In this document: positions 1,762-8,099 of the stretch, piece by piece
Position numbering within the stretch: position 1 is the stretch's first letter
How the letters are laid out: the number at the start of each line of letters is the position of its first letter
Source of the DNA: Desulfobacteraceae bacterium
GTDB lineage: Bacteria > Desulfobacterota > Desulfobacteria > Desulfobacterales > Desulfosalsimonadaceae
DNA length: 11,189 nt
Direction of reading: 5' to 3'
Assembly: GCA_007131845.1 (NCBI GenBank)
Contig: SLPT01000298.1
Coordinates: 1 to 11,189 of the forward strand
Position numbers and translations under genes: made by a program
Notes under the pieces: model-generated
Database searches by the model: none
The model's input: the letters and a program-made list of their open reading frames with translations, nothing else
What the model was told of the DNA's origin: nothing

Positions 1762-2436
1762 ATGGACGCAACCAACTATCTGGAAAACCTGCCGGACGAA
1801 CTCATGGTGGCGGTCAATTTCAGCACCGTCGCCGGGGAAATCGTCAAGAAAAACGGCATGGCCGTCAACACCGATCCCCCGTCGCTCGAGATCCGGTTCG
1901 GGCCGGATTTTCGGATCGATGCCGAAAAACTCGATTTTTCGGCCGACTGCCTGGTCTTTATCGAAACCGGCGAGATCGTCACCCTCATCTGCACCGTAGA
2001 GCAAGTCCCGGAGCCCAACGCGCTTTTGCTTACCGCGCGCGACCTGGTCCAGCACGTGGAAAAGCGGGAGTATTTCCGGAGCCCGGCCGACCGGCTTGCC
2101 GTCACCTGGTACCGGAAAAACGAGCGCAAGAAAAACCGTCAAAAACACGGTGCAAAAGGGATCAATATCAGCAGCGGCGGCATGCTGGTCATGACCGAGG
2201 AAACGGTGGACCGCCGGGAGCGCCTGGTTTTAGAGGTAAAGCTGCCCGAGCCGGTCAAAAAGACCATCACCTGCGATGCAACCGTCCTGCGCGTGGAAAA
2301 CGATCCGTTGGGCCGGATGCTTGTGGCCGTTCGATTCGAAAACGCCCCTGAAATTGCCGACGACATCATGGGCTACTGTTTTGCCGAGCAGCGCCGCCTT
2401 CTCCGGGAGAAGGTGGTGACGAAAGACCTGCTATAA
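1762..2436 (+). CDS. PilZ-domain c-di-GMP-binding protein (YcgR-like layout)
   Basis: The 224-residue protein has the two hallmark c-di-GMP motifs of PilZ domains: RxxxR at residues 102-106 (R-E-Y-F-R) and NxSxxG at 135-140 (N-I-S-S-G-G). A beta-rich remainder ends in the RMLVAVRFEN strand (about 185-194). Residues 1-95 form a separate N-terminal domain resembling the YcgR-type flagellar-brake N-domain in place and length, though I cannot assign it firmly. There is no membrane segment, so the protein is predicted cytosolic. ATG 1762 is the first possible start because an in-frame TGA sits at 1753-1755; no good Shine-Dalgarno sequence is visible, and ATG 1804 is an alternative. It is the only plus-strand gene, and its last 71 bp overlap the end of the acyltransferase/hydrolase gene. 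As a likely c-di-GMP receptor it may respond to the GGDEF protein encoded nearby; that link is inference. Confidence 0.88.
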   Translation: MDATNYLENLPDELMVAVNFSTVAGEIVKKNGMAVNTDPPSLEIRFGPDFRIDAEKLDFSADCLVFIETGEIVTLICTVEQVPEPNALLLTARDLVQHVEKREYFRSPADRLAVTWYRKNERKKNRQKHGAKGINISSGGMLVMTEETVDRRERLVLEVKLPEPVKKTITCDATVLRVENDPLGRMLVAVRFENAPEIADDIMGYCFAEQRRLLREKVVTKDLL

Positions 2437-4585
2437 ACCCTTCCACCGCATGAAAGACCCTATCCGAGCCCTCTCCATTGACGATTCCGTGGCGCGGCGT
2501 ATTGACCAATACGTATTGCTTGTTTTCCGATGAAATGCCCTTGAATATGCGCATGGAGCCGGCGGGATGGACCACCGGGTCGCGCTCGCTCTGGATGATC
2601 AGCGCCGGGACCCTTATGGCGGAAAGCCTTGGCTCGAGCTGGTTCATGAATTTTCCCATCTCCGCAACCCCTGAAATGGGGTTGCGTGTATAATTGATGT
2701 GGGGGTTTTCCGGGTTGTTTTCCACGAAGCGCTTGGATGCCGACGGGATATGGAGTTTTCCCGCCAGGTTGTTCCAGAAATGGACCGCTCCCACGAAGTG
2801 CGATGAAAAATCCTGGAGCTTGAGCGGCGCGGAAATGGCGAACACCCCCCTGATGTCGTCCGCGCGCGTGCACAGGTCTAAAACCAAGCCCGCCCCGAAG
2901 GAAAACCCCCCGGCCACGACGGTCTGACAGAGATTCGACACGATGGTGTAGCCCTCGGCCACGGATTGGGTCCACTCCTGGTGGTATCGCTGCGCAAGGT
3001 CTTCCGGCGCGGTGCCGTGTCCTGGTAGCCGTACCCCGTAAACGGGATATCCGTTTGCCGCAATCCGGTCGCCAAGGGCACGCACCTCCAGGGGGGCCGC
3101 CATGTAGCCGTGCACGAGAAGCACCCCGATATCCCGGCGGCTTCCCCGGATAAAAAAGGGTGATCCCACAGCCTTTGGCTTTGCAGCGCCGTTTTTTGCA
3201 AACCGGAAATAGTCCTTTTCGAAATCGATATCCCCCTTTTCCAAAAGATGACGCCGGATTTGGTAGCGGATGCGAAGCGCCGGCTGCCGGGCGATGGATT
3301 TCAGCATCTCTTGCAGATCGTCTATGGGTTCGATCTCGTTGGCCGCCACCGCGATGGGATTTTCAATACGGATCTGGTGAAAGTCGTGCGCTTTTTCGAA
3401 ATCATAGATTTTTTGGAGCCGGCCATTTTGTTCGGCCAGGACGCCTTTTTCAACGGCCAGCTTCACGAAGCTGTTGATGCGTTTGTAGGGGTCGTCCGTG
3501 AGCAGTTCCGCGGGGTTGCGGGAGAGGCTCTGGTGGCGGAAGATGCCCCTCTTGTCGTAGTCGATGGTGGCAATGGCGAGAAATACCCGCCGCCGGAGAT
3601 CCTTTACGTCGATTGTTCCGTAGGGAAAGTGCTTCAGAAGGGTCGCCAGGATGTGATCCGGGTTGACGGTGGTCATCCGGTAGATGGCGGACATGTAGCG
3701 GCCCATGATGCGCAGTGCGGTTTTCCGGAGCATGGGGCGCGAGGCGATGGGGTCGTCGAATCCGATGGGCGCGTTGGACGCCATATCCGCCTTAACGGCC
3801 CGGGTGTTGATGTAGCCGGCCGCCCGGATGGGGTCCCCGAAGCGGATGTCCACGTCCACGCCGGACAGAAGCATACTGCTTTCCATCATGATCTCTTCGG
3901 TCATCCGCCCGGACATTTCGCCCATGAGCATTCCGGCCAGCCGGTTGAGGTTGTTTTCCCGGCCGCGCATGGGGTGGTAGGTGATGTTTACCGGGACGAT
4001 GTGGGTCTGGGTGCGGTGGACCGGGCCGGGGTCTTCGATACCGAAGCGGTCCAGTATCCGCCGGGCCTCTTCCGGGTTGTTTTTTTCCATGATGGCCAGA
4101 CGGCGTCGGTAGAATTCCGTGCGGAGGCTGAGCGTGGCCGCGCCGGTGCGCGGGGGGTGAAGCCCGGATGCGGAGAGGATCATGAAGCGCGATTCGTCTT
4201 TTTTGCCGGCGCTGTAGACTTTCTTGTTCTTGACCATTCTTCCTTCGGGAAAGATGATCCAGGCCGACTCGCCGGTCAGAAGCGAGCGCACGATGAGCCG
4301 GTCGCGGTCCGGGTTTTTATTGGACATCGCACCCAGGTTTTCCAAAAGTTTACCGAAGTTCCCCTTGAACAGGGTATAGTCCGCCAGGCTCCAGACGGTC
4401 AGCCCGGTGATGCGGTTGATGAAATAGGGCAGAAAGATGGTTTCCATGCGGGTGAAGTGGTTGATGACGAAAATCAGCGACCCCTTCGGAATCTTCTCTT
4501 CACCTTGAATGCGGAAATTCGCCCGCGCCAGCCCCGCCAGCGCACCCACCGCGTATCCGGCCGTATGATAGGCATAATAGTTCAT
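2366..4585 (-). CDS. Bifunctional PlsC-type acyltransferase / alpha-beta hydrolase fusion
   Basis: The 739-residue protein combines two enzyme modules. The N-terminal part (about 25-260) resembles glycerolipid acyltransferases: block I NHFTRME at 42-48, with E48 where the usual HX4D motif has Asp, and block III FPEGR at 112-116. The C-terminal part (about 480-720) is an Est30/monoacylglycerol-lipase-like alpha/beta hydrolase: oxyanion-type VHGYMAAP at 491-498, RLPGHGT at 519-525, nucleophile elbow G-F-S562-F-G, candidate acid D669 (SERDP) and catalytic H699 (PRHG). Residues 260-480 are an unassigned helical linker. ATG 4585-4583 lies 2 nt after the stop of the GGDEF gene, with GGAGG at 4603-4599 (13-nt spacer, long), suggesting translational coupling. 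The frame stays open upstream through the GGDEF gene, but that extension lacks domain sense. Acyl transfer to and removal from lipids is predicted; the substrates are unknown. The tail (720-739) is low-complexity and overlaps the PilZ gene. Confidence 0.88.
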   Translation of the reverse strand: MNYYAYHTAGYAVGALAGLARANFRIQGEEKIPKGSLIFVINHFTRMETIFLPYFINRITGLTVWSLADYTLFKGNFGKLLENLGAMSNKNPDRDRLIVRSLLTGESAWIIFPEGRMVKNKKVYSAGKKDESRFMILSASGLHPPRTGAATLSLRTEFYRRRLAIMEKNNPEEARRILDRFGIEDPGPVHRTQTHIVPVNITYHPMRGRENNLNRLAGMLMGEMSGRMTEEIMMESSMLLSGVDVDIRFGDPIRAAGYINTRAVKADMASNAPIGFDDPIASRPMLRKTALRIMGRYMSAIYRMTTVNPDHILATLLKHFPYGTIDVKDLRRRVFLAIATIDYDKRGIFRHQSLSRNPAELLTDDPYKRINSFVKLAVEKGVLAEQNGRLQKIYDFEKAHDFHQIRIENPIAVAANEIEPIDDLQEMLKSIARQPALRIRYQIRRHLLEKGDIDFEKDYFRFAKNGAAKPKAVGSPFFIRGSRRDIGVLLVHGYMAAPLEVRALGDRIAANGYPVYGVRLPGHGTAPEDLAQRYHQEWTQSVAEGYTIVSNLCQTVVAGGFSFGAGLVLDLCTRADDIRGVFAISAPLKLQDFSSHFVGAVHFWNNLAGKLHIPSASKRFVENNPENPHINYTRNPISGVAEMGKFMNQLEPRLSAIRVPALIIQSERDPVVHPAGSMRIFKGISSENKQYVLVNTPRHGIVNGEGSDRVFHAVEGFIAGLSSPPSPGEGGAARQNSSP

Positions 4586-4587
4586 AT

Positions 4588-6141
4588 TCAGTGTGCGTCC
4601 TCCGATCGTCCCCCATCCGTTTCCCGGTGAACCCTGTTTCTGCCGGCATGCTTGGCCTTGTAGAGGGCGCTGTCTGCCCGGGAAACGAGCTCGTCGGAGG
4701 AGAAGCCGGGGGTCGGGACGCAGCAGGAAACGCCGAAGCTTGCCGTCAGGTACGGGGAGGGAAGGTGGTCGCCCTGGTCGATTTGCAGGCCGCATACCGC
4801 GCGCCGGATTTTTTCCGCAAGCTTCACCGCCCCGTCGCCGTCGGTTTCCGGCAGCACGATGATGAACTCTTCCCCGCCGTAGCGCGCAACCAGGTCCCCG
4901 GGCCGGTGGCACTGCTCCTGAAGGGTTCGGGCCACTTGCCGTAAGACCTCGTCTCCGGCCTGGTGCCCGTAATCGTCGTTGTATTCCTTGAAATGATCGA
5001 TGTCCGCCATGACCAGGGAGATCGGACGGCCGTCGCGCGCCATACGAGGCCATTCCTTTTCCAGGTGCTCCTTCAGGCGCCTTCGGTTGGCCAGTCCGGT
5101 CAGCCCGTCCGTGTCCGAAAGATCTTTAACGGTCTGGTAATGGCGCGCATTTTCAATGGCCAGCCCGCATATCCCGGAAATTCTGGCGGCCAGTTTTTTG
5201 TACCGGTCGATATGTTCGGGCATTGCAACACCGGCAATCGTCAATTCGCCGATGGGGCCGCCGCCGCCATCGATGGTCAGGGTGAATCCGTTTTCAGGTG
5301 AAATGCGGCTGTTTTGCCGCTCCCCGCAGCCGGCCTCCTGGGACCCGGTAAAATGAACGGATGACGGGGCGAACAGCATAATGCACATTTCCCGGATCCC
5401 GTCGATCACCTCCTTTTCGGACCGCATCCGCACCAGTTTGTTAAGCAGATCCAGGGCCATGAGAAAATCGGCCAGTTCCTCCCGGCTCCGGTTGCTTTCC
5501 GGTGGGTCCGGCGGTGTATCATCTTCAATGCGGCTTTTCAGGATGGCATTGATGATCAGCAGTTCGAAATAATCCGTCCCCACCGGCACCGCCATCCAGG
5601 GGCGTCCGGTGTAATCGGCGAAATCCTTCAGGTTATCGGTGGCCGCGGGATCGACGCCGGTATCCAGCAGCAGGATGCCGGTAGACCATTGCCGGAAAAA
5701 GGGTTTCACCGTTTGTGCGTCAAACCCCCAGTCTGCAATGATCTCCTGCCAGCGGGCCAGCCAGCCCGGGGTAACCGTGTAGTAGCCCATTCGGGCGTAG
5801 TAGTCGGCCAGATCGGGGCTGACCAGGAGATGGAGGCAGTGCCTGATCCGGATCCTTGACTGCCCGCCGATGATATGATGCTTCGCCGGTATTTCGGCAA
5901 TGCATTCCCCCACGGCGACATGCAGCTCATCAGCCGGGTGTTCGGCAGAAGTGAGCCAGGCGGGAAGACCGGACATCCGGGTGTTTTCCAGCGTGCTCCA
6001 CTTTGCCGGAGGCATGCCGCAGCGACCTTTGAAAAACACAACGTCCACGTCCGGATACTTCGACGAAAGCGCCAGTGCTTCGATTTCTTTTCTGTATGTT
6101 TCGCAAACCGCAAGTGTTTGTCTGGTCGCCGGGTTGTTCAA
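4588..6141 (-). CDS. DUF1638-like / GAF-like / GGDEF diguanylate cyclase
   Basis: The 517-residue protein has three parts. Residues 8-200 resemble DUF1638: a start like LAVCETYRKEIEALA, DVDVVFFKG, then RHCLHLLVSPDLADYY and GYYTVTPGW (119-127). I recall DUF1638 proteins near corrinoid methyltransferase genes. Residues about 225-335 look like a GAF domain, ending in the IENARHYQTVKDLSD helix. The GGDEF domain (342-505) has DGLTGLANRR (345-354), metal-site D380 in MADIDHFK, GGEEF (422-426) and a correctly spaced inhibitory I-site RxxD (R413-D416), so an active, product-inhibited cyclase making c-di-GMP from GTP is expected. No membrane segment is seen. The start is a TTG (6141-6139) 12 nt after the TAA of the methyltransferase gene, in the same frame, with a poor Shine-Dalgarno sequence. 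The first DUF1638 strand begins right after it, which supports this start. The DUF1638 call is from memory of the family pattern; the GGDEF call is firm. Confidence 0.9.
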   Translation of the reverse strand: MNNPATRQTLAVCETYRKEIEALALSSKYPDVDVVFFKGRCGMPPAKWSTLENTRMSGLPAWLTSAEHPADELHVAVGECIAEIPAKHHIIGGQSRIRIRHCLHLLVSPDLADYYARMGYYTVTPGWLARWQEIIADWGFDAQTVKPFFRQWSTGILLLDTGVDPAATDNLKDFADYTGRPWMAVPVGTDYFELLIINAILKSRIEDDTPPDPPESNRSREELADFLMALDLLNKLVRMRSEKEVIDGIREMCIMLFAPSSVHFTGSQEAGCGERQNSRISPENGFTLTIDGGGGPIGELTIAGVAMPEHIDRYKKLAARISGICGLAIENARHYQTVKDLSDTDGLTGLANRRRLKEHLEKEWPRMARDGRPISLVMADIDHFKEYNDDYGHQAGDEVLRQVARTLQEQCHRPGDLVARYGGEEFIIVLPETDGDGAVKLAEKIRRAVCGLQIDQGDHLPSPYLTASFGVSCCVPTPGFSSDELVSRADSALYKAKHAGRNRVHRETDGGRSEDAH

Positions 6142-6153
6142 GATGTCATCCGT

Positions 6154-7218
6154 TTAGCGTTGAATAGGGTAGCTGCCGTGACGATGTACGGCTTCCGATA
6201 CTGCCGAAAGAACGGTTTCCGGGACTTGCCAGGGAATATCGCCGTGGTTGTCCGCCAAAATAAAACCGCCCCCGGAGGCTGCTTCTGCAATGGCGTTCCG
6301 GACGGCGGAAAGTGCATCTTCCCGGCTCCAGCGCACCATTTCCAGGCCGTTGAGATTCCCGATAACGGTTAGCCTGCCTTTGCAGGTACGTTTGAGCGCC
6401 CCTAAATCCTCGGCCGCGCTGACGCCGATTCCCCCGGTTCCCGTTTGTGCGATGTCGTCCGCTACCTGCAGGGTGGCGCCTGATGCAAGGTGAGTGGCAG
6501 TGGGCCCGTTGATCCGGGAAATGGTGCGGCTGGCCACGATATGCCCGGTCTCAAGATACAGGGACCGGGGGATGATGGTGGGAGATGCGACCGGGTCGAA
6601 GTAGCAGATTGCCGTAGCCCCTTCGGCAATCTGGGCGTTGGCCCAATCGACGCAAAATGCCTCGTTGATTTCCATCAGCTCCCAAAAAAGCGAGGGCTCC
6701 CGGCAGAGCAGTTCGATATAGGCGGAAAAGCCCATCTGCATGACCGGTAGGGAAAACGGGGAGATCACCACGCCCATCACAGGGATATCCCCCGCAGCTT
6801 TTTCGGTCAGTATCCGCGTGGTTTTGAGTACTTCAAGGAGTCCTGCGGCGCTATCGATATCCGGCGGTTTCAGCCGGGGGATCTGTATGGCGGGCTTGTC
6901 GATGAATGGCTTTCCCGAGTTGGGCGGGCCGTTGTCAAAATAAACGATATCCCCGCCCCAGGCCGCGATTTCCATCGGGGCGTGGAAAAACGCAAACAGG
7001 CAGTCGTGCCGGTATTTTGCCTGCATGCGAAGCTGGGCTTCGGCCACGGTTTCCCCGTTGGAAAAATAGTCCCTGATGGACATCTTCATTTCCCGGGCCC
7101 CGTGGGTCGTCAGTAAAAGGAAAAACGGGACCCTGTCGGGTTCCTTATGGTCCATGGCCGTAAGCACGCGCTCCATGGGGGTCATTGTATATTGCCGGGT
7201 ATCGGCTGGCAGGTTCAT
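6154..7218 (-). CDS. MtaA/CmuA-type (UroD-superfamily) corrinoid-dependent methyltransferase
   Basis: The 354-residue protein has the start MTPMERVLTAMDHKEPDRVP (12-31) typical of MtaA/MtbA/CmuA methyltransferases, a CYFDPVASP motif (205-213), GNLNG (287-291) and the closing GGGFIL strand (316-321). Relatives move methyl groups between a corrinoid protein and CoM, tetrahydrofolate or another acceptor; the corrinoid protein encoded just upstream is the evident partner. The family's zinc ligands H-x-C and C are not present as such: the first site reads H243-L-A245 and the second DNH325, so metal binding or chemistry may differ. ATG 7218 overlaps the corrinoid gene's TGA (ATGA) and has AAGGA 8 nt upstream; ATG at codon 12 is an alternative. 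The frame remains open upstream into the corrinoid gene, without domain meaning. Substrate and acceptor cannot be read from sequence. It could instead act as a sensor-like non-catalytic partner. Confidence 0.9.
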   Translation of the reverse strand: MNLPADTRQYTMTPMERVLTAMDHKEPDRVPFFLLLTTHGAREMKMSIRDYFSNGETVAEAQLRMQAKYRHDCLFAFFHAPMEIAAWGGDIVYFDNGPPNSGKPFIDKPAIQIPRLKPPDIDSAAGLLEVLKTTRILTEKAAGDIPVMGVVISPFSLPVMQMGFSAYIELLCREPSLFWELMEINEAFCVDWANAQIAEGATAICYFDPVASPTIIPRSLYLETGHIVASRTISRINGPTATHLASGATLQVADDIAQTGTGGIGVSAAEDLGALKRTCKGRLTVIGNLNGLEMVRWSREDALSAVRNAIAEAASGGGFILADNHGDIPWQVPETVLSAVSEAVHRHGSYPIQR

Positions 7219-7883
7219 GACAGGCGTCCTTCCGTTGCCATTTGGACGATCGAGAGGGCGTCCGCAGCGCTCTTTCCCGCCGCATCCGCGCCAACCTCCT
7301 TCCAGAGCCGCTCGTCCAGCCGGAAGGGGGCGCCTCCGACGGCGACCCGGGTGTTGCACTGTTCGCTGCGAAGACGGTCGATAACCGCTTTGACTTCCAT
7401 GGCCGAAGCGAGCATCAGCACGGAGATGAAAAGCAGCTCCAGGCGATCTTCGACCACCCGCCGGACCAATTCATCGGTTTCCATGCGGCCGTAATCCAGA
7501 ATGTCGTATCCGGCGCCCCGCAGGACGGAATAGACGATCTGTTTGCCCAGGGCGTGATAGTCATTCAGCAAAACGACGGCCATTTTAGGACCCGGCCTCT
7601 GAAATCCCGTGCTTTTTGCCAGAACCGATTCCGCCAGTTCTTCGCAGATCCGGCCGCTGATATAGACCTGGGAGAGGGCGTATTCCTGGTTTGCCCACCC
7701 GTTGCCGATGCTGTCCAGGGCCGGGATGATCACCGTTTCCACGAACTCGAGGGGGGTGTGCCGCTCCGTGAAACGGGATAGAATCTTTCGGGCTTCTTCT
7801 TCATCGCTGGATACCAGGGCATCCCGGAAGGCATCCGATACGGAGGGTTTCAGTCCGCTTTCTTCTGTTGGGCGCTGAGTCAT
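7215..7883 (-). CDS. Corrinoid (B12-binding) methyl-carrier protein, MtaC/MtbC type
   Basis: This 222-residue protein has the two-domain layout of methyltransferase corrinoid carriers. A helical cap covers about residues 15-92, with the PALDSIGNGWANQEYALSQ stretch at 54-72, and a Rossmann-like B12 domain covers about 98-218. The B12 domain keeps D108-Y-H110-A-L-G113 (DxHxxG, lower axial histidine ligand), S154-V-L156 (SxL) and GG at 183-184, so cobalamin binding in the base-off/His-on mode is expected. It is soluble and cytoplasmic. It begins the operon, and its stop overlaps the methyltransferase start. ATG 7883 is the first possible start because an in-frame TAG immediately precedes it, yet no Shine-Dalgarno sequence is visible. 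The substrate-specific methyltransferase that would load it is not in the window. Confidence 0.93.
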   Translation of the reverse strand: MTQRPTEESGLKPSVSDAFRDALVSSDEEEARKILSRFTERHTPLEFVETVIIPALDSIGNGWANQEYALSQVYISGRICEELAESVLAKSTGFQRPGPKMAVVLLNDYHALGKQIVYSVLRGAGYDILDYGRMETDELVRRVVEDRLELLFISVLMLASAMEVKAVIDRLRSEQCNTRVAVGGAPFRLDERLWKEVGADAAGKSAADALSIVQMATEGRLS

Positions 7884-7905
7884 CTATTTGAATTCATGTA
7901 GTTTT

Positions 7906-7917
7906 GAGTGTCTTTTT
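7906..7917. repeat. 12-bp direct repeat, left copy
   Basis: GAGTGTCTTTTT here is repeated exactly at 8118-8129. The pair brackets a 200-bp segment that contains the inverted-repeat element. It could be a relic of a target duplication or recombination, though it does not abut the element's ends. Confidence 0.6.
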
Positions 7918-7974: not shown

Positions 7975-8099
7975 GACGGCTTCGTAAAACGTCCAATATC
8001 TGCGCCTGCGTGCAATTTCTCAGCATTTCACGTGCGCCAGGTACGCTGCATTCTTCGAAACCCGGCAAGCCTTGATCTTGAACTTTTTACAAAGCCGTC
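7975..8099. mobile_element. MITE-like inverted-repeat element
   Basis: The element is bounded by GACGGCTTCGTAAAA (7975-7989) and TTTTACAAAGCCGTC (8085-8099), inverted copies matching at 14 of 15 positions. The match extends inward, to about 22 of 26 bases (7975-8000 against 8074-8099). It encodes no transposase. The sequence, especially the core around GCATTTCACGTGCGCCAGG, resembles from memory a repeat family dispersed through Desulfobacteraceae genomes; I cannot check copy number here. No target-site duplication directly abuts the arms. As it lies downstream of the predicted promoter, it should be transcribed into the corrinoid-operon leader, where the arms could pair as a long hairpin. A REP-type or regulatory RNA repeat is the alternative. 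Confidence 0.7.

Follow-up and report, generated by a model that had tools for sequence, protein, structure and literature searches.

An 11,189-nt stretch of DNA from a Desulfobacteraceae bacterium (contig SLPT01000298.1 of assembly GCA_007131845.1; hereafter, the window) carries three adjacent minus-strand genes encoding a corrinoid-binding protein, a URO-D-fold protein similar to MtaA and CmuA, and a DUF1638-GAF-GGDEF diguanylate cyclase. Comparative sequence analysis indicates, with good confidence, that these genes constitute a corrinoid-based sensory cassette with swappable outputs. This reading is drawn from the near-fixed order of the genes, the exchange of the outputs, the loss of zinc ligands from the URO-D protein and the failure to find any such output beside 15 other URO-D genes. 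Below, G numbers denote genomes, G000 being that of the window, and L numbers denote loci of the survey. As a sequence-only reading of the window had noted, the genes are tightly packed: the junctions show that the URO-D gene (6154..7218) overlaps the corrinoid gene (7215..7883) by ATGA and is separated from the cyclase gene (4588..6141) by 12 nt. In comparison with a same-genus locus, L026, the dN/dS ratios of the three cassette genes were 0.30, 0.22 and 0.36, indicating that all three are under constraint.

The 222-residue corrinoid protein consists of cap and B12 domains (PF02607 and PF02310), with the Pfam B12-binding and B12-binding_2 models matching at 56 and 41 bits, respectively, both above the cut-off. 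It thereby possesses the B12-binding fold and the DxHxxG motif of a methyltransferase corrinoid protein, the latter occurring as DYHALG at 7562-7545. Of 39 cassette copies, 36 keep the motif and three were read incompletely; all nine copies of a second architecture, type B, described below, keep it as well. Against NCBIfam TIGR02370, the protein scored 73 bits, below the cut-off of 215.3. In the PDB, the corrinoid profile was nearest to the trimethylamine corrinoid protein (7xcn), 1y80 and the monomethylamine corrinoid protein (3ezx); it also matched a photocobilin structure (8j2y).

The URO-D protein (354 residues) matched Pfam URO-D (PF01208) with 172 bits and found the same fold in MtaA (PDB 4ay7). 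We take the zinc ligands of MtaA and CmuA to be H-x-C ... C. Alignment with 4ay7 revealed that the His of HxC is retained, that the next Cys is an Ala, and that the last Cys position lies inside DNHG; the two site motifs of the window protein are HLASG (6492-6478) and DNHG (6252-6241). In a joint alignment of 38 members of the clade delineated below, the His was kept and both zinc-ligand cysteines were replaced in all 38. This set omitted the incomplete proteins of G071 and G297 and included those of G504 and G511. The zinc-ligand columns were marked using 4ay7 and four MtaA-like proteins selected for carrying the motif, all four of which have both cysteines. The nine type-B proteins also lacked the Cys pair, although L136 is uncertain: its sequence at this place is YYCG, most others having HHxG or similar, such that one Cys is possibly kept while the His and the last Cys are not. 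Finally, the window protein scored 99 bits against NCBIfam TIGR01463, for which the cut-off is 235.4. Together, the score, the alignment with 4ay7 and the lost cysteines rule out a canonical MtaA identity. The earlier label of an MtaA-type methyltransferase overstates the membership.

A URO-D protein devoid of the MtaA metal ligands may no longer be an enzyme, which would suit an arrangement in which it is a scaffold, no methyl group is moved and the corrinoid protein senses cofactor, redox state or light in the manner of photocobilins or CarH. We consider this improbable. The corrinoid protein keeps DxHxxG and is nearest to the methylamine-type structures listed above; it is also a separate protein, paired with the URO-D protein. 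Moreover, the cassette hosts are presumably anaerobes, in which light sensing is less expected. In favour of such a sensor, a B12-domain diguanylate cyclase, the photocobilin AbDPcob (8j2y), is known, and the likeness to the cassette lies in a B12-binding domain being joined to a diguanylate cyclase. According to PMC10979010, photocobilins are light sensors containing B12 and bilin, some of them fused to a diguanylate cyclase such that domain and cyclase form one light-sensing chain. By contrast, the cassette has a separate methyltransferase-type corrinoid protein, a URO-D partner and a DUF1638-GAF cyclase. Consistent with this difference, DUF1638 and GGDEF were the sole Pfam domains found in the cyclase chain; no B12-binding domain, and hence no combination with GGDEF in one chain, was detected.

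The cyclase is a 517-residue protein with a TTG start. Its N-terminal part (residues 1-205; 5527..6141) had been proposed to be DUF1638, and matched PF07796 over residues 65-194 with 34 bits, above the gathering cut-off of 27; the outcome of an unrelated family did not occur. Among other fused copies, 13 pass this cut-off and four fall below it in hmmscan (21-27 bits), one of which, L033, passes in another search. Three cysteines of the window protein, Cys13, Cys80 and Cys102, are invariant in all 18 aligned DUF1638 sequences, taken from fused, separate and other settings. A fourth candidate, identified by eye, is Cys41, which is present in seven fused DUF1638 domains, the other 11 sequences having a His in the neighbouring column. 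A GAF-like domain (residues ~215-340; 5122..5499), supported by a test of the GAF fold, lies between DUF1638 and the GGDEF domain (Pfam residues 343-503; 4588..5115; PF00990, 172 bits). As claimed earlier, the GGEEF signature (4878-4864) and the RxxD I-site (RPGD; 4905-4894) are both intact, as in a diguanylate cyclase, and the domain is predicted from its sequence to be an output that makes cyclic di-GMP (c-di-GMP). A search of PDB sequences with the DUF1638-GAF profile returned nothing convincing (best E 0.18). A single-sequence AlphaFold 2 (AF2) prediction was set aside for its low quality (mean pLDDT 44.6). The AF2 model based on five rows was of moderate quality (mean pLDDT 58.7, with DUF1638 residues 42-111 below 50); VIA-align mostly tested residues 214-340, and no conclusion is drawn about how DUF1638 folds.

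To survey the cassette, 389 genomes of the class were searched using profiles of the DUF1638-GAF part (A3) and of the URO-D protein (A6, 18 rows), which yielded 47 genomes at E ≤ 1e-10 and 38 genomes at E ≤ 1e-60, respectively. The URO-D clade comprises 37 of the 389 genomes, with scores of 353-655 bits; a clear gap separates it from the next score, 209 bits, which belongs to the 38th genome, G141, a distant relative. Two short peptide patterns led to four loci in named records of metagenome-assembled genomes (MAGs), L026-L029, all ordered corrinoid, URO-D, DUF1638-GAF; the sequences of L028 and L029 stop short of the output. One of these, L027, is from a Syntrophomonadaceae MAG (Bacillota, Clostridia) and contains the same cassette. 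Its flanks (an SH3-domain gene, a DUF427 gene, a hydrolase, an ABC transporter and UbiA) bear no relation to the neighbours seen in the genus of the window, which indicates that the transferable unit is the three genes.

Neighbourhoods were viewed in all 37 class genomes and L027. In all 38, a corrinoid gene lies upstream of the URO-D gene, within 400 nt or overlapping it. Thirty-seven of these calls were made by the distance rule; the remaining one, G005/L026, was outside the distance limit and was recognized on a separate reading, its corrinoid open reading frame (ORF) being located at 7246-7911. In 37 of the 38, the gene directly downstream, within 400 nt, encodes DUF1638, this GAF domain or both. 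The order is therefore not unique to the window's genome, and this second outcome that would have refuted the earlier reading did not occur either. A survey of 247 genomes of the phylum identified two clade members besides G000. One of these, G511, has the same gene order and a Pfam-confirmed kinase output; the other, G504, is considered below.

The outputs of the 38 cassettes differ: four have GGDEF, 13 a histidine kinase and 15 a Cys-rich tail, and six are cut by contig ends. The GGDEF outputs (G000, G005, G186 and L027) were identified using Pfam, except that of G005, for which phmmer was used. The 13 kinases (G059, G254, G041, G280, G267, G360, G103, G205, G177, G219, G216, G151 and G286) all matched Pfam HATPase_c, those of G280 and G177 having HATPase_c alone, with no HisKA match. 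The Cys-rich tail, PICx[HY]CKx[IV]R[DE]DxGYW, follows the GAF domain in 15 clade genomes (e.g. L112:5432-6211) and had no Pfam match in the three examples scanned (L112, L114 and L117). In a tree of the URO-D proteins, the window copy groups with G005, G025 and G003, then with L027 (80/89); the remaining GGDEF copy, that of G186, branches near the base without resolution. Second genes of the same GAF family, joined to GGDEF, occur in signalling islands ~4.4 kb and 10.3 kb past the cassette URO-D gene (L121:9944-11005, in which GGDEF was identified using Pfam, and L126:15806-16843).

A TRAP binding-protein gene, the same in each case, follows the cassette in four clade members, G160, G213, G146 and G297, and a similar one follows it in L086 and L088. 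In G160 (L114) and G213 (L112), the binding protein, a permease and a DAO-family FAD enzyme all follow on the same strand, the families having been assigned in G160. The best scores of the G160 enzyme were to amino oxidase/sarcosine-oxidase models, far below the cut-off. These neighbours hint at an N-methylated compound as the ligand in this one small lineage.

Type B comprises nine distant loci in which the corrinoid and URO-D genes are followed by a separate DUF1638 gene (~200 residues) and then by a signalling gene. This gene, confirmed using Pfam, encodes a histidine kinase in eight loci (L042, L059, L106, L107, L110, L111, L120 and L136) and GGDEF in one (L105). GGDEF is thus present in both architectures, and separate and fused outputs fill the same slot. 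The corrinoid protein of L136 (2275-4221) carries a long N-terminal extension, to which a metallo-beta-lactamase model matched weakly, below the cut-off. Some loci run counter to the plan: in L108 and L109, DUF1638 occurs with no corrinoid/URO-D pair, and in L135, URO-D and DUF1638 occur with neither corrinoid protein nor output. Four genomes with weak DUF1638 matches (G192, G082, G150 and G079) lay outside the neighbourhood survey.

As a control, we examined the other URO-D genes of 12 cassette genomes. Pfam URO-D matched 29 genes at E ≤ 1e-15: ten of the clade, four of type B and 15 others. These 15 control genes are from four genomes: five each from G041 and G151, four from G186 and one from G160. 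Six of the 12 genomes (G059, G254, G219, G103, G044 and G052) had no non-cassette match at this threshold. A screen using phmmer with cassette-family domains, and Pfam for 20 nearby genes rather than for every gene, detected no histidine kinase, GGDEF or GAF-linker gene immediately adjacent to any of the 15; a neighbour may be missed at L128 and L129, which are near contig ends. The neighbours identified using Pfam include catabolic genes, among them MtaB (L127), RACo (L128), MTTB (L130), MtrH, CobW and DUF2284 (L133), aldehyde dehydrogenase (L129) and ETF (L138), and corrinoid proteins are also among the partners. A cupin-HTH regulator adjoins the control gene of L140. H-x-C is present in ten of the 15 control matches, its position having been checked by alignment for four. 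Two control genes, L131 (G041:C72:8069-9052) and L133 (G151:C12:339846-340832), each contain one in-frame TGA in the same place (FAPG*DMPYDVP), which by eye is the position of the last zinc-ligand Cys of MtaA-like proteins; it looks like a selenocysteine codon at the metal site. Both have a DUF2284 gene as their upstream neighbour.

These controls bear on the possibility that the pair performs catabolic methyl transfer, that the third protein senses the substrate alone through a DUF1638/GAF pocket, and that the genes are adjacent for co-regulation. The TRAP genes, and the permease and amine-oxidase-like genes of G160 and G213, would suit such a pair, as would the DUF1638 genes that occur without an output in methyltransferase clusters: one in G000:C269 adjoins RACo and MttB matches, and those of L036-L038 and L040 are beside genes read by eye as being of the methyltransferase-cluster type. 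Nevertheless, we judge this explanation unlikely. The cysteines of the MtaA zinc site are gone from all aligned clade members, no catabolic URO-D gene was found immediately next to such an output, and co-regulation alone would not require the sensor gene to keep a near-fixed third place. The sequence-only reading had further argued that the window lacks an MT1 methyltransferase and a reactivase. None was found among the nine window proteins scanned using Pfam, such that the cassette does not adjoin either as a catabolic operon would, and none was present among the scanned neighbours of the Clostridia cassette. Elsewhere, G000 contains three RACo_C_ter and two MttB matches, so their absence from the window is, by itself, weak evidence. 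RACo was found in nine of the ten genomes tested and MttB in eight; a cassette genome that is 95% complete, G103, had neither match, and G219 had no MttB match.

Several observations weigh against the proposal of a sensory cassette. First, a search using cyclase residues 1-334 found this DUF1638-GAF in only four of the 36 genomes of the family, G000 included. DUF1638 was detected in 20 of the 38 cassettes and not in the other 18, among which G277 is cut short, indicating that DUF1638 is not essential to the plan. Most DUF1638 genes also occur outside cassettes, with the pair present in one of 20 fetched loci (L059) and, by the phmmer rule, in two of another set of 13 (L033 and L042). In the URO-D tree with outgroups included, the output label changes five times as compared to a minimum of three, and the branches with strong support do not require repeated switching. 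Near the control URO-D cluster of L133 (G151), a LuxR-type response regulator is located 1.3 kb away with a PAS-HisKA_3 kinase behind it and the MtrH gene between; this kinase-regulator pair near an ordinary catabolic cluster also speaks for the co-regulated pair considered above. Lastly, there are irregular cassettes. In G071, the URO-D gene is broken, its second fragment scoring 212 bits, and the GAF gene lies ~0.6 kb downstream. In G251, which was found by its GAF gene alone, corrinoid, URO-D and GAF genes are in order, with the URO-D protein lacking ~215 residues. Only G504 clearly departs from the order: its URO-D gene has neither a corrinoid nor a GAF gene as a neighbour, and a GGDEF gene is 1.3 kb away, behind a gene on the opposite strand. 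The last three cases could be taken to indicate chance neighbours or a decayed catabolic operon. We regard this as hardly credible, given an order kept in all 38 loci of the class survey and L027, spanning two phyla, and the dN/dS ratios of 0.22-0.36; chance adjacency as such is ruled out by the conserved order.

In the sensory cassette that we favour, the corrinoid and URO-D-like proteins would be the input, DUF1638-GAF the relay, and GGDEF the output making c-di-GMP. The ligand of the URO-D-like protein may be a small methylated compound or the product of one; the protein would then either pass a methyl group to or from the corrinoid protein or read the state of the corrinoid cobalt. The corrinoid state would in turn alter the docking of the pair on DUF1638. 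There, the three invariant cysteines may form a metal or thiolate site, which could itself accept the methyl group. From what is generally known of GAF-GGDEF and GAF-histidine kinase proteins, the GAF domain would relay the change to the output through the dimer. Taken as a whole, the signalling cassette together with these steps appears to be the best explanation of the sequence data, and a reasonably likely one. The earlier reading had methylation or corrinoid state control c-di-GMP synthesis: the sensory use of the pair is well supported, on comparative grounds, by the gene order, the exchange of outputs, the loss of the site and the controls, and, given such a cassette, we consider the case for methyl or corrinoid state as the actual signal to be evenly balanced. 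More tentatively, corrinoid methyl chemistry might itself be the sensor: the URO-D protein would read a methylated compound, and the corrinoid protein would carry the methyl group and either transfer it to, or keep it from, the Cys-rich DUF1638 site, in the manner of Ada, or the GAF-linked output. Methyl supply would thereby be coupled to c-di-GMP or a phosphorelay by a modular input that has moved between phyla.

We know of no report of a corrinoid methyltransferase-type pair serving as the input to a cyclase or kinase, and this class of input module is, to our knowledge, unnamed. The same two folds stand side by side in the MtaA, MtbA and CmuA methyltransferases and their partners MtaC, MtbC and MttC (4ay7; 7xcn and 3ezx, with DxHxxG). 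By contrast, the cassette is without the zinc-ligand cysteines and is coupled to histidine kinase or GGDEF outputs, and the window proteins fall far under the TIGR01463 and TIGR02370 cut-offs. The DUF1638 proteins of corrinoid methyltransferase clusters belong to the same Pfam family and have the same three invariant cysteines; there, DUF1638 is alone or fused to a hydantoinase-type ATPase, whereas in the cassette it is joined to a signalling output or has one encoded after it. In three loci (L030, L031 and L032), ORFs of 917-951 residues combine DUF1638 with a hydantoinase/oxoprolinase-type ATPase; in the two scanned using Pfam, L030 (DUF1638 N-terminal) and L032 (DUF1638 C-terminal), the fusion was confirmed. 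A link of these fusions to corrinoid reactivation is possible. Ada is a regulator activated by methyl transfer, and the proposed analogy is that a methyl group moved to a Cys-rich site switches an output. In the cassette, methyl acceptance by DUF1638 is hypothetical, and the comparison is one of function, no sequence relation having been looked for.

Outside the core cassette, a fourth same-strand gene encodes an acyltransferase-hydrolase fusion (2366..4585) and begins 2 nt past the cyclase stop. It is also downstream of the cyclase in the same-genus copy L026, there after 122 nt, and is absent beside the L027 cassette. Beyond it, a PilZ-domain gene (1762-2436, plus strand) is convergent with the cassette operon and kept in L026; its product is a possible c-di-GMP receptor. 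A gene encoding a PAS protein (1473-1, minus strand) continues past the window end. An intergenic repeat precedes the corrinoid gene, with a 30-base segment of it located at 8070-8099 (minus strand). This segment occurs 134 times in the 2.05-Mb G000 assembly with up to three mismatches, as compared to zero for the reversed control. In L028, the repeat is also found upstream of the corrinoid gene and between the URO-D and DUF1638 genes. An Rfam scan of the window returned no family at the gathering score, and therefore no known riboswitch was seen in the window.

If the sensory reading is true, corrinoid methyltransferase parts known as catabolic enzymes would also be sensors feeding c-di-GMP and two-component signalling, both in the phylum of the window and in one or more of the Clostridia. 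DUF1638 would thereby gain a functional setting, and the lack of metal ligands in some URO-D proteins would be explained. The sensing of methylated compounds by anaerobes would, moreover, become directly testable with three small genes.

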